Assembly (NCBI GenBank): GCA_902761145.1
Contig: CACWJA010000003.1
Span: 64,092-128,091 of the forward strand
Direction of reading: 5' to 3'
Origin: an uncultured bacterium
Lineage (GTDB): Bacteria; Patescibacteriota; Saccharimonadia; Saccharimonadales; Saccharimonadaceae
DNA: 64,000 nucleotides
This document shows positions 18,237 to 25,320 of this stretch, piece by piece. The translations under genes were made by a program, and so were the position numbers. Every line of letters begins with the position of its first letter. Position 1 is the first letter of the stretch. Under the pieces are notes generated by a model that was given only the letters and a program-made list of their open reading frames with translations, had not been told where the DNA came from and did not search any database.

Positions 18237-18308
18237 TTCTCAAAAGAAGATGACGCCACTTCCGAGACATCATCTTCTGAGAAAAGGAATTAGCTGCCTA
18301 AAATTCCT
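18237..18308 (-). terminator. Tandem hairpins after the CBM26-type surface gene
   Basis: A first stem, AGGAATT/AATTCCT (18285-18308), begins at the stop codon and is followed on the minus strand by TTTTCT. A second, longer imperfect stem pairs AGAAGATGA with TCATCTTCT and TTCTCA with TGAGAA. Confidence 0.6.
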
Positions 18309-20002
18309 TAAGCTTTTTTACGCTTCATAGCCACTAGAACTATAGCAAGAACTACTGCAGTAGTCAAACATCCGACAAGGCTTGCAGCGGTAGTGCGATA
18401 TATATTTTGCCCTACACCTGTATTTGGCACTGCTAGATCGGATCCTTCATCGTTATCTGGAACCGCCGATTCAGAACTTTCTTCGTCATCAGGAGATATT
18501 TTTTCATACACCGCTGTGAATTCGGCGTCTTCAAGCACCACAAAACTTGAGTCGACTTCATTCCCATCTTTGTCAATAAGGTACATGAACTTATAGCCGC
18601 TCTTTTCTAAATCTAATCCTTCCATCATCTGCTCATAAGTTGTACCGTAGCCAAAGCTATATGTTCTTCCGTCAACAGATACGGTTAGCATCTTCAGCGT
18701 AAAAGATATTTGTACTTCTAGATCGTCTTTGATGTCGTCAAGCGTCAAAACCCCATCTTCCATTTCATATTCTTCACCATTTACTAGGATCTTGTCGATA
18801 TCATATCCTTCATTTGTAACAATTCTCAGAGAATAATCATCTCCATAGTACAAATTTACTGGTGATTCAATGTCATCCCCCGATAAAGTCTTGATTGTAC
18901 CGTTTTCGCCCACAATGAATGTTATATGGTATATTCTCGCTTCAAATTCTGCATCGAAATATAGCCCGATAAAATTACCGTCATTAAAAGAGTACTGATA
19001 ATTGTCTTCTCCTGGTACGCCATCAATGGTAGTTATATCGCTCTCGTCAAATTGTGGTACGCCCTGGTCATAAGACAAAATCTTTTTTACCGTAATATTC
19101 TTAATCTGATATCCAGGGTTCGGTGTAACTTTGATATTAATATCATTATCACTGTCTTCTGGATATGTAGCGCTCAAAGTGCCGTTAACAATGTCGTCAC
19201 TTATTACGATGTCCTTTCTCTCTTCTAACTCATTCATAGCCTTGCCAAGTGCATTGTAGGCGTCCAGATATTCGCTACCGAAGGTCTCACCCTCATTAGA
19301 GATTGATAGCTTGTGAAGAACATCATTGTTTAAGTTTAATTTAGAGATATAATACGCACCAAGATTATAATCACCTTGGTTGTCCTCAGTCACATCTTCT
19401 ATATTTTCAATCTTATCTCCCAATGCAGCCTTTACCGCCCCCCAAGTCTCTGCCGTATATTTGTTGCCGTCTAGGCTATCTGCTTCTTCTACCATAGCTA
19501 CCAAAGCACTGACATCATTTACGGCCCACTCACCTTTGTATTTGCCGTTGCCCTGCCTGTCGCTTTCTTCAAATAAATATGCTAATGAATTTACTAAATC
19601 TTTAGTATCGTTGATTACGCTTAGATCAATGGTTTGTCTGCCGCCCCCATCAAAAATTACTTTGTTATAATGTTTTCCATAGCTATCGGTAAGAGTATAG
19701 CAATATACATCTCCTCCGTCGTCGGTCATCAATACGCCTGGCCAACCCGCCAACTCGCCATCACTGTTAGAAGTATCCCAAGCATACATGTTGTAAGAGT
19801 TTTGCTCCTTCAAGACATTAGACTTAGTACACATTTTAAAGCCTGTCTTTATGTAAGTATTGTCATTCCATGAAGCAGATTCGGTGCCTCTTGCTGTGAA
19901 TTCAACCGTCGTAGGATAATTGTAAGCATTCACATTATTAGTACCAATAAATGTGCCAATAATCAAAGCGCCAACGACAGCCTTCGATCCAATGATTTTC
20001 AT
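18308..20002 (-). CDS. Wall-anchored surface protein with CBM26-like domain and VPNTG sorting signal
   Basis: A 564-residue surface protein. A Sec signal peptide ends near residue 26 (NNVNA/YNYP). Residues about 55-130 resemble starch-binding module CBM26: MYAWDTSNSDGELAGWPG, VIFDGGGRQTIDL. An alpha-helical FIVAR-like region follows (about 145-265), then beta-rich repeats of the InlB/Listeria-Bacteroides kind (about 268-490). The C-terminus is a canonical sorting signal: VPNTG, a hydrophobic helix and KRKKA. The protein probably binds glucan or host glycans on the outside of the cell. A strong AAGGAGG site and a consensus promoter precede it. No sortase gene is in the window. Confidence 0.75.
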   Translation of the reverse strand: MKIIGSKAVVGALIIGTFIGTNNVNAYNYPTTVEFTARGTESASWNDNTYIKTGFKMCTKSNVLKEQNSYNMYAWDTSNSDGELAGWPGVLMTDDGGDVYCYTLTDSYGKHYNKVIFDGGGRQTIDLSVINDTKDLVNSLAYLFEESDRQGNGKYKGEWAVNDVSALVAMVEEADSLDGNKYTAETWGAVKAALGDKIENIEDVTEDNQGDYNLGAYYISKLNLNNDVLHKLSISNEGETFGSEYLDAYNALGKAMNELEERKDIVISDDIVNGTLSATYPEDSDNDINIKVTPNPGYQIKNITVKKILSYDQGVPQFDESDITTIDGVPGEDNYQYSFNDGNFIGLYFDAEFEARIYHITFIVGENGTIKTLSGDDIESPVNLYYGDDYSLRIVTNEGYDIDKILVNGEEYEMEDGVLTLDDIKDDLEVQISFTLKMLTVSVDGRTYSFGYGTTYEQMMEGLDLEKSGYKFMYLIDKDGNEVDSSFVVLEDAEFTAVYEKISPDDEESSESAVPDNDEGSDLAVPNTGVGQNIYRTTAASLVGCLTTAVVLAIVLVAMKRKKA

Positions 20003-22268: not shown

Positions 22269-24251
22269 TTATTCAGCTAGACAACGGATAGTTTCACCAT
22301 TACCTCTATCGCTTATGCCTGCTGGGCCAACGTTGCTAGAACCGAAATACAAAGCATACGCATCGACACTATTGTAGCTTGTGCTAGACCAATAATTACC
22401 GTAACCGCCGGAACTCTCCAATGAACCATAGCTAATTTGTCCAGACCGAACTAACCATAATGGCACCGTACGGATCTTACTAAAGCCGCCATCTAAGTAC
22501 TCGTGATAATAACAATACCCATCACAGCCCTCACGGATAGTATCTTCTATGAAGTTACTACTTACGATCAAGTTAGCCATATCGCTATAATTAATATCAT
22601 TAGCATTTGGGCCAGTGGGTAGTCTCCATCCAGCAGGGCAAATAGATGTAGACATATCATCATATTGTGCGACAACCTCAGTTGTATCATTATTTGCTAC
22701 CGCAGCAGACCAGGTATAGTAGTTGCCAGCATGGTTATGTGCACTACAGTCCGAATGGGCGGCCTGACAAGCCTCCAATGAAGCATACCGCGTATCACCA
22801 TCTGCAGTACCAGAGCTATAGTAATACACACCACCAGGATCGGCAGAATATGGCACACGAGCGCTATTTCTCCACTCACTTACTGATGTGCCATTGAAAC
22901 TAATCGTACTGTTTGCAGGCGTCCATTCTTCAACAATATTTGTATCAGCTGGAGTAAAAGTAGTCTCTGTACTCAAGTCTAAGTCCAGGTTCTGGGTCAT
23001 CCAGATATTACCATCTGCTAGTTTAGAGATGTAGTAATTCTTTTGATCACGATTATCTTTTAGCTGGTACTCATCTCCTTCTGCCATAGATTCTATTACG
23101 CTAGCTTTATCTGTTTCAGACAATGTAGCGAAGTCTTGCATATAGGTAAGGTCGCCTATGACTGGTAGTGCTTCCTCCCATTGGGCATAGAGAGTGACAT
23201 TTTGCGTTTCGTCTATGGCGGCAGTAAACTCTGTTTCATCAGCATATGCTTCACTAGTACCATCTGCTGCCGTATTCCAGCCAGTGAAGTTATAGCCATC
23301 TTTGGTGTAAGTGTTTGCTGGAAGAGTGATAGTATCTCCTGCTATGATAGTCATTCCTTCCATATCTACTCCGCCATCATTACCATTGCCATTGAAGGAT
23401 AGGTTGGTGATGTAGTTTGGCTCTGCTTCGTAGTTTATCTCACTTCCTTCATAGGTACCATATGGAACATCTGGAGTGATGTAGAATCCATAGTAGATGG
23501 TGGTAGTGTCATTAGCTTCTGTTTCTACATAGTCTGTAGCTTTAAGGACAGTAGGAACATCTGAATCTATGGAGAGAGGCATATATACTTCAGCATCTTT
23601 GGTGGTAGGTTTTTCGTCTAGAGCTAAGCCATAGGTATTGTCTGTGAGGGGAGCTAGTTCACCTTCGCTTGCTGCTACCATAGGAATTACTTTAGAAGAA
23701 TCCGTGGTAGATACTAGGTCTGTGTTATCCGTATAGGCAGTGAGAGTATAGCCTGCTTCGGTAGCTTCTTTTACTGTAGCTTTTACTTCTGCTACGGCGA
23801 ATACTGGCTCGTCTGCTACTTCTATAGTGATATCTCCTCCAGTAACGTCTAGTGTTAAACCATCTCCTTCTACTGCATTGGTATTATTCTTATTAGCACT
23901 AGCAAGGAGAGTGGTAAGTGTACCAGCACTAGCTAGAAGTGCTATGGCAGATAGACCTGCTGCAATACGCTTCTTAGACTTAAGTACTGCCTTGGTACTA
24001 TCTATGGTATGTACTAGTTTAGTTACTTTGCCGGATTTCTTTTGTTTTCTATACAGAATAGCTACTACAATAGCAGCTATAGTTAGTATTAATACTGCAC
24101 CTATGGCAGTAGCTTCTGGGCCTCCTATACTGTGAGTAAATAAACCCGTGTCTGGGACTGATATATCTGTAGTGCCAGTAGCATGATCTACTGGAGTAGA
24201 ACCACCTGGTTCTACTATATTAATTTTGATATTAGTATTTGTAGCAGCCAT
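22269..24251 (-). CDS. FISUMP-domain adhesin-like protein with N-terminal VPDTG motif
   Basis: A 660-residue protein. Unusually, a sorting-like sequence lies at the N-terminus: VPDTG at residues 32-36, a hydrophobic helix (about 47-66) and RKQKKSGK. A second hydrophobic segment follows after a basic stretch (about 95-115). Then come an extracellular beta-rich region, one InlB B-repeat (Flg_new type: ITLPANTYTKDGYNFTGWNT) and a C-terminal FISUMP domain with NIWMTQNLDLDL, SICPAGWRLPTG and NYWSSTSYNS. Repeat and FISUMP parts closely resemble the protein at 56477-59239. The start is backed by a GGAGGCGAG site. Its promoter contains a (TA)12 tract. Probable role: adhesion, possibly to the host cell. 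Confidence 0.75.
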   Translation of the reverse strand: MAATNTNIKINIVEPGGSTPVDHATGTTDISVPDTGLFTHSIGGPEATAIGAVLILTIAAIVVAILYRKQKKSGKVTKLVHTIDSTKAVLKSKKRIAAGLSAIALLASAGTLTTLLASANKNNTNAVEGDGLTLDVTGGDITIEVADEPVFAVAEVKATVKEATEAGYTLTAYTDNTDLVSTTDSSKVIPMVAASEGELAPLTDNTYGLALDEKPTTKDAEVYMPLSIDSDVPTVLKATDYVETEANDTTTIYYGFYITPDVPYGTYEGSEINYEAEPNYITNLSFNGNGNDGGVDMEGMTIIAGDTITLPANTYTKDGYNFTGWNTAADGTSEAYADETEFTAAIDETQNVTLYAQWEEALPVIGDLTYMQDFATLSETDKASVIESMAEGDEYQLKDNRDQKNYYISKLADGNIWMTQNLDLDLSTETTFTPADTNIVEEWTPANSTISFNGTSVSEWRNSARVPYSADPGGVYYYSSGTADGDTRYASLEACQAAHSDCSAHNHAGNYYTWSAAVANNDTTEVVAQYDDMSTSICPAGWRLPTGPNANDINYSDMANLIVSSNFIEDTIREGCDGYCYYHEYLDGGFSKIRTVPLWLVRSGQISYGSLESSGGYGNYWSSTSYNSVDAYALYFGSSNVGPAGISDRGNGETIRCLAE

Positions 24252-24302
24252 AATGTATTACTCGCCTCCTATATATGGTTATTTATTGTTATTATGCTTA
24301 CA

Positions 24303-24334
24303 ATTATATATATATATATATATATATAAGTCAA
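24303..24334 (-). promoter_or_regulatory. (TA)12 tract between -35 and -10 of the FISUMP gene
   Basis: On the minus strand TTGACT (24334-24329) is followed by an uninterrupted TA run (24328-24305) that merges into TATAAT (24308-24303). The spacer to TATAAT is 20 bases; one or two TA units fewer would give 18 or 16. A second TTGACT overlaps five bases further upstream. Gain or loss of TA units by slipped pairing would switch promoter strength. Confidence 0.7.
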
Positions 24335-24546
24335 GTCAAGATTTTGTATGCGCCCATAGCATATTGGCCTCTATCGCGTCACGCTTATGTTACATAAGCA
24401 ACCACGCACCAATGCAGCATTATTATATCTATTATCACCACTACTATACTCTCTACGATCAACATTTCTGGCTTTCTCCATCTAGCATTCCTCTATCGCA
24501 GATATGCAAAATATATGGACTCTGTCCAGTCAAAATCGTAATATGT
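24335..24546. other. Intergenic region with a palindrome
   Basis: Between the TA promoter and the phosphotransacetylase-like gene no further gene is seen. At 24383-24399 lies a perfect palindrome, GCTTATGT-T-ACATAAGC, a possible operator for either divergent gene. Confidence 0.45.
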
Positions 24547-24552
24547 TATAAT
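24547..24552 (+). promoter_or_regulatory. -10 box of the pta-like operon, leaderless
   Basis: TATAAT, six bases (TTACCC), ATG at 24559. It argues against a longer frame that begins at 24226. Confidence 0.6.
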
Positions 24553-24558
24553 TTACCC

Positions 24559-25320
24559 ATGAAAATCATTTTTCCAGAACTAAATAATCCATTGGCCCAA
24601 AAAGCTATCCAAGGGTTTCCCGATATAGACTTCCTTCCCGCACCAAACTTGCATACTGCCGTACATCTACTCGCTTCTGGCCAGGCAGATACTATGATTT
24701 CTGGCCTAGATTATTCCTCTCGCGACGTTCTTTTAGCTTACAAAGATCAGTTACCGCTAAAGTCCAAATACTTTTCCAGCTGCTTTATCTGCGAGCGGGG
24801 AAATACGCATTTTGCCCTCGCCGACGGCGGCGTCAATAAACTCCCCACCAAGGAACAGCTCTATACTATAGTCGAAGACACAGCTATTACTTATAGCAAT
24901 TATTACCACGAACAGCCCATCATCGCCATGCTTTCCTATTCCACTAATGGCAGCGGCGGCAAAAACCCAGATCTCGACAAAATCCACTATGTCATAGAGC
25001 AGATTCGCTTATCTCATCCAGACTGGATTATCGATGGCGAAATGCAGCTAGATGCCGCCATTAATCCAGATATTAGCCACAAAAAATTCCCCGCCTCTCA
25101 AGTAGCCGGCCGCGCCAATATCTTAATTGTGCCAGATCTTAATACTGGCAACATCCTCTACAAAGCCTTGGAATATCTCGGCAGTTTTACCATAGCTGGA
25201 CCCATGATTCAAGGCTTCAGCATCCCCCTCGCCGATCTCTCACGTGGCAGCACGGTAGAAGATATTGTTTTAACGATCAAAATCCTCAGCAATCAAGTGC
25301 TAAAAGAAAGGAACAAATGA
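24559..25320 (+). CDS. Phosphate acetyl/butyryltransferase-like protein
   Basis: A 253-residue protein of the PTA_PTB fold, converting acetyl phosphate and CoA to acetyl-CoA if active. Family features are LSYSTNGSGGKNPDLDK, DGEMQLDAAINP and the C-terminal block from GRANILIVPDLNTGN to GPMIQGFSIPLADLSRGS. It is shorter than typical enzymes (about 330 residues), mainly in the N-terminal half. The leaderless promoter sets the start at MKIIFPELNN. Its stop overlaps the glmM start (ATGA), so it is the first gene of a three-gene operon. Substrate specificity cannot be told from sequence. Confidence 0.8.
   Translation: MKIIFPELNNPLAQKAIQGFPDIDFLPAPNLHTAVHLLASGQADTMISGLDYSSRDVLLAYKDQLPLKSKYFSSCFICERGNTHFALADGGVNKLPTKEQLYTIVEDTAITYSNYYHEQPIIAMLSYSTNGSGGKNPDLDKIHYVIEQIRLSHPDWIIDGEMQLDAAINPDISHKKFPASQVAGRANILIVPDLNTGNILYKALEYLGSFTIAGPMIQGFSIPLADLSRGSTVEDIVLTIKILSNQVLKERNK

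Follow-up and report, generated by a model that had tools for sequence, protein, structure and literature searches.

In the 64-kb stretch of DNA analysed here (hereafter the window), from an uncultured bacterium of the family Saccharimonadaceae, a perfect run of TA units separates -35-like from -10-like boxes upstream of a gene encoding a FISUMP-domain protein. We consider this run likely to be a hypermutable spacer microsatellite, in which slippage would shift the -35/-10 spacing and so alter transcription of the FISUMP gene. The initial annotation had already read the site as a likely phase-variable promoter, and this reading gains support from a sister-species ortholog whose tract differs in length (12 versus 9 units), from paralogs with 7, 5 and 7 units, from three further promoter families (P2–P4), from frame-switching tracts in related surface genes, and from the lack of detectable MutS and MutL.

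A TA microsatellite between putative promoter boxes of a FISUMP gene

The minus strand of this region reads ...AAAATC TTGAC TTGACT (TA)12 ATTGTAAGCATAATAACAATAAATAACCATATATAGGAGGCGAGTAATACATT ATG, with the tract 53 nt upstream of the ATG of the FISUMP gene (Table 1). The TTGACT box, the TA run and TATAAT are located exactly where the initial annotation had placed them, and the sequence confirms its spacer of 20 nt to TATAAT. The value given for the proximal TTGACT thus stands, but a second, overlapping TTGACT had been missed and, because there are two -35 boxes, the tract lengths expected to be ON differ from those first proposed. Likewise, the ribosome-binding site that had been described as strong is real (AGGAGG), but it is located 13 nt from the ATG. 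Transcription is predicted to start around position 24295 on the minus strand.

Table 1. Features of the (TA)12 promoter region and its flanking genes (window coordinates; P1 is the promoter family of the window site).
Feature	Position	Strand	Remarks
660-aa FISUMP-domain protein, gene presumed switched	22269..24251	-	List_Bact repeat and two N-terminal hydrophobic stretches
Ribosome-binding site AGGAGG	24265..24270	-	
TGTAAGCATAAYAACAATA, conserved, putative initially transcribed region	24284..24302	-	
-10-like box TATAAT	24303..24308	-	last two TA units plus AT; kept in all P1 copies
(TA)12 microsatellite, putative variable spacer	24305..24328	-	perfect repeat
Proximal -35-like box TTGACT	24329..24334	-	spacer 2n-4 = 20; unchanged in 5/5 P1 copies
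Second -35-like box TTGACT	24334..24339	-	shares one T with the proximal TTGACT; spacer 2n+1 = 25; unchanged in 5/5 P1 copies
Divergent pta-like gene (PTA_PTB)	24559..25320	+	own TATAAT at 24547-24552, 6 nt before ATG

Other TA/AT runs within the window reach 8 bp at most, and a pattern search identified (TA)12 as the sole run of at least eight TA units in the 872-kb genome. A short tandem repeat is present between -35 and -10 boxes, the boxes being consensus matches. A consensus promoter scan with a 16–18 nt spacer did not call the TTGACT-(TA)12-TATAAT site, because its 20-nt spacer falls outside that range. The scan returned nine matches, compared with 7.8 in shuffled sequences; therefore, the boxes alone constitute weak evidence, and the support comes from relatives.

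The assignment of the downstream gene as FISUMP, made in the initial annotation, is borne out by a TIGR02145 score of 47 bits, above the NCBIfam cut-off of 41.65; the Pfam model PF09603 scored 28.7, below its cut-off of 33.9. The product, characterised by its domain content, is predicted to be a surface protein, and the adhesin-like role suggested in the initial annotation is putative. Close to the N-terminus, its leader (window 24000-24251), like those of its paralogs, combines a VPDTG motif with a hydrophobic stretch and RKQKK, an arrangement that resembles a sortase signal at the wrong end of the protein; a second hydrophobic stretch follows. Elsewhere in the window, positions 18308-20002 encode a 564-aa protein with a CBM26 starch-binding module and a C-terminal VPNTG-hydrophobic-KRKK end that is sortase-signal-like.

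Several other roles for the tract and its surroundings were considered and rejected. The tract does not double as a promoter of the divergent pta-like gene, since that gene is served by a separate promoter about 220 bp away. A long plus-strand open frame (24226-25320) was discarded as a gene start upstream of pta, since it is not kept in the sister species (genome G061), where pta begins at the same ATG. Nor does the tract lie within the FISUMP coding frame, as stop codons occur in all minus-strand frames between the tract and the ATG; the repeat inside a reading frame that characterises translational contingency loci is thus absent at the window tract and present in relatives. A TATAAT about 6 nt before the ATG is found at pta (window 24547-24561) and at five genes of other species that carry TA tracts in their coding sequence (L085, L086, L087, L089 and L097), which suggests leaderless transcripts. 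Neither scans of viral contigs, by pattern and by protein, nor a tblastn search against phage records found a relative.

Tract length differs between orthologs and among paralogs

A genus-wide search found the window promoter in two genomes only: its own (G000) and G061, a metagenome-assembled genome (MAG) from dairy cattle duodenum named Candidatus Saccharibacteria bacterium RGIG524. The neighbourhood is the same in both: the promoter is flanked by a FISUMP-type gene and, on the opposite side, by the pta-like gene and a phosphoglucomutase gene. As the initial annotation had proposed, TA units were counted in related genomes, and their number differs at the same locus, (TA)12 in the window versus (TA)9 in G061, in what is a comparison between species based, like the whole analysis, on assemblies, mostly of uncultured genomes and one per species. 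The alignment of the two contains no gap column either in the 560 bp upstream, where identity is 92–95%, or over the 53 bp that separate the tract from the ATG, so that the tract is the single indel over 613 bp.

The genome has about nine copies of the leader type seen in the FISUMP gene of the window (MAATNTNIKINIVEPG...), and their promoters differ. The P1 layout is TTGACTTGACT-(TA)n-ATTGTAAGCATAA, with TTGACTTGACT and ATTGTAAGCATAA identical in five of five copies. Besides the window site, this TA promoter occurs in two further G000 copies, one with n=7, belonging to a 686-aa FISUMP protein, and one with n=5 (L021 4008-4421); G061 also carries a second P1 copy, with n=7. Because the n=5 copy is frameshifted just after the leader, its FISUMP part continuing in another frame, short tracts may mark decaying copies. 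Another FISUMP gene (L035, G000:C2:91363) is preceded, at a distance of about 130 bp, by TTGACTTGACTAATATATATATTGG, with a separate TATAAT nearer the gene; this locus weakens the notion that TTGACTTGACT is specific to TA promoters.

Spacers to TATAAT from the proximal and second -35 boxes (2n-4/2n+1) are 20/25, 10/15, 6/11, 14/19 and 10/15 in the five P1 copies, and the 16–18 nt optimum is reached by none of them. This shortfall is the chief difficulty in reading the tract as a switch; on a strict model, all five promoters would be weak at their assembled lengths.

Proposed slipped-strand mechanism

In the proposed mechanism, replication slippage, uncorrected where mismatch repair is apparently lacking, would add or remove TA units; each unit gained or lost would move the spacer by 2 bp, and the altered spacer would raise or lower transcription of the surface protein in a fraction of the cells. 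With the -35 box doubled at a 5-bp offset, the spacers to TATAAT would be 2n-4 or 2n+1. An approximate score of the E. coli type, with parameters not fitted to this organism, peaked at n=8, 10 and 11, was intermediate at n=7 and 9, and fell at n of 12 and above, where a TATATA inside the tract took over; three of the five P1 copies (n=9, 7 and 7) scored as intermediate. The promoter would be strongest at the three peak lengths, intermediate at n=7 and 9, and weaker at the n=12 of the window, a state predicted to be weak and one slip from a stronger one. According to this model, a TATATA within a long tract can substitute for the -10, which would blunt the switch at n of 12 and above. We infer that the TTGACT/TATAAT boxes are used, that expression changes with n, that switching takes place within one population, and that it is of benefit at the host surface.

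TA spacers in other promoter families

A gapped pattern of TTGA, a TA run and TAYAAT was found at 11 places in 6 of 174 genus genomes, versus one place for a reversed control. In three further promoter families of the genus (P2–P4), the -35 and -10 boxes are likewise separated by a TA run. P2 (TTGATA-TACAAT) is located upstream of a 482-aa secreted protein; G078 has three copies with nearly identical flanks and n=8, 10 and 12 (spacers of 13, 17 and 21), and G169 has one copy with n=10 and a spacer of 17. P3 (TTGACC-TACAAT) is present in three copies in G181, with spacers of 18, 18 and 22, and P4 (TTGACA-TATAAT) shows a spacer of 15 in G144 and of 11 in G105, the latter with a shorter tract and recovered by a second pattern. 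The boxes at the tract edges thus differ between families, as a spacer switch predicts. In another genus of the family, locus L135 (G427:C24:28057-28084) presents TTGACA-(TA)8-TATAAT, a full consensus with a spacer of 16, upstream of a 441-aa gene in which no obvious secretion signal was seen.

Dinucleotide tracts at the 5' ends of reading frames

The (TA)9 search was positive in 30 of 174 genus genomes; among 252 genomes from other genera of the order, it was positive in 2. Of the long TA tracts examined, about half occupy the 5' end of a reading frame, which in most cases encodes a secreted protein. Among the other species of the genus, 23 tracts (L050, L054, L060, L062, L065, L067, L068, L073, L074, L077, L080, L084-L093, L095 and L097) follow shortly after an ATG and encode Tyr-Ile repeats, which for the most part precede or fall inside a hydrophobic, signal-like stretch; the genes include several FISUMP proteins, one glycosyltransferase and secreted proteins. 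In the assemblies, 10 of these tracts are in frame and 13 out of frame. The out-of-frame tracts soon run into a stop codon, and a change of one or two units restores a longer frame, in some cases followed only to the contig end.

Similarly, (AG)9 or (CT)9 tracts are present in 12 of 174 genomes. Six such tracts were inspected, four of them at the 5' end of a reading frame (L131, L132, L133 and L134), three in frame and one out of frame; in L133, n=9 would open 516 aa. To judge from sequence, TA and CT tracts that occur both in and out of frame match what is typical of translational contingency loci. No other long TA tract exists in the window species, and its putative switch would be of the promoter kind. 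At four loci (L051, L056, L070 and L076), a long TA tract separates a stop codon from a terminator; L070 and L076 share flanks and have n=15 and n=10, respectively.

We regard it as quite probable that these loci form a genus-wide set of dinucleotide contingency loci, with TA in promoter spacers and TA or CT in signal-peptide ends, each locus independently switching a FISUMP or other secreted protein in cells without MutS and MutL.

Mismatch repair genes and contig ends

Loss of mismatch repair raises dinucleotide slippage. The MutS family was found in none of the 50 genus genomes searched, and MutL was not found in the window genome; the controls of these searches were positive in 11 of 14 reference genomes. 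A published survey likewise reports neither MutS nor MutL in Saccharibacteria (PMC8406219).

Of 46 TA tracts, seven are no more than 10 nt away from the end of a contig (G064:C4, G111:C1, G117:C19, G143:C23, G148:C4, G053:C11 and G177:C26), compared with 0.045 expected. Tract lengths that vary within the sampled populations may explain these breaks, because reads would then disagree on length; repeated flanks could be an alternative cause.

Alternative explanations

The tract could be unstable and yet neutral, TA runs drifting in AT-rich intergenic DNA without mismatch repair while transcription starts elsewhere or proceeds independently of n. The mismatch repair genes that were not found, the long tracts at sites without obvious function, such as those between stop codon and terminator, and the optimal spacer missing from every P1 copy would all fit such drift. 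Against it, no P1 copy shows a change in the -35-like and -10-like boxes that border the tract, the same layout is found again in other promoter families in excess of the reversed control, and about half of the long tracts examined occupy 5' ends of reading frames, chiefly those encoding secreted proteins. On balance, we consider neutral drift unlikely, though it is the explanation to be taken most seriously among the alternatives.

It is improbable, in our judgement, that the TA run acts as an AT-rich or flexible operator or UP-like element, or sets the distance to a regulator bound at TTGACTTGACT in the manner of nadA, rather than serving as the -35/-10 spacer. Such a role would account for the TTGACTTGACT copy at L035, which is accompanied by an imperfect AATATATATATT run, and for the conservation further downstream of CATAAT, a possible -10 at n=4–5. 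In P2–P4, however, one tract edge carries different -35-like words (TTGATA, TTGACC and TTGACA) while the other is always TATAAT or TACAAT, so that a σ70-type promoter fits better than one operator. An assembly error, by which the repeat number in a MAG would not be a biological length, might be suspected from the 11 contigs of G000 and the tracts at contig ends in the genus; it appears highly improbable, as the 24-bp tract is shorter than ordinary short reads and long tracts are found at the same place in the independent G061 MAG and in paralogs. A slippage-variable spacer therefore remains our preferred reading.

Relation to known systems and significance

In the hifA/hifB fimbrial promoter of Haemophilus influenzae, (TA)9-11 is held to alter the -10/-35 spacing (PMC2651432). 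The initial annotation had equated the window layout with this system, and the likeness holds as regards a TA run between -35 and -10 boxes, proposed to alter their spacing, upstream of a surface-structure gene. It does not extend to the combined divergent promoter of two surface genes: the hif tract serves both, whereas the window tract would serve one direction, the divergent gene here being pta-like with its own TATAAT. The window site further differs in its doubled -35 box and its FISUMP gene, and its effect on expression is predicted.

Genus relatives have loci that resemble translational contingency loci, namely secreted and FISUMP genes with (TA)n or (CT)n inside their 5' end, some in frame and some not. 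The window tract, unlike these, is outside the reading frame and would therefore change transcript level, not frame. At nadA of Neisseria meningitidis, a repeat changes the spacing of distal promoter elements (PMC2791445); repeat number there likewise alters the geometry upstream of a surface gene, but the nadA repressor binds operators flanking the repeat, whereas the window repeat lies in the putative core promoter spacer. Within the CPR, a hypervariable PTD-repeat gene of Gracilibacterium contains a 9-mer coding array with mainly synonymous variation (PMC6851277). It shares with the window gene its origin in a CPR bacterium and a repeat-containing predicted surface protein, but it is neither an on/off nor a promoter switch.

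No paper on phase variation in Saccharibacteria or Patescibacteria was found in the literature searched, which includes only a minority of subscription papers. The window site would thus represent a mechanism of the hifA/hifB kind in a group without an earlier report in that literature, and the genus-wide set is the more interesting claim. Saccharibacteria are known as very small symbionts that live on other bacteria, and little of their adaptation to host strains has been explained. The proposed set of switches can be checked in existing metagenome reads, through repeat lengths at a few dozen named sites. If true, and to judge from the literature searched, no phase-variation system would have been described in these episymbionts before it, and slippage-driven switches of surface genes would let a tiny genome make many surface types.
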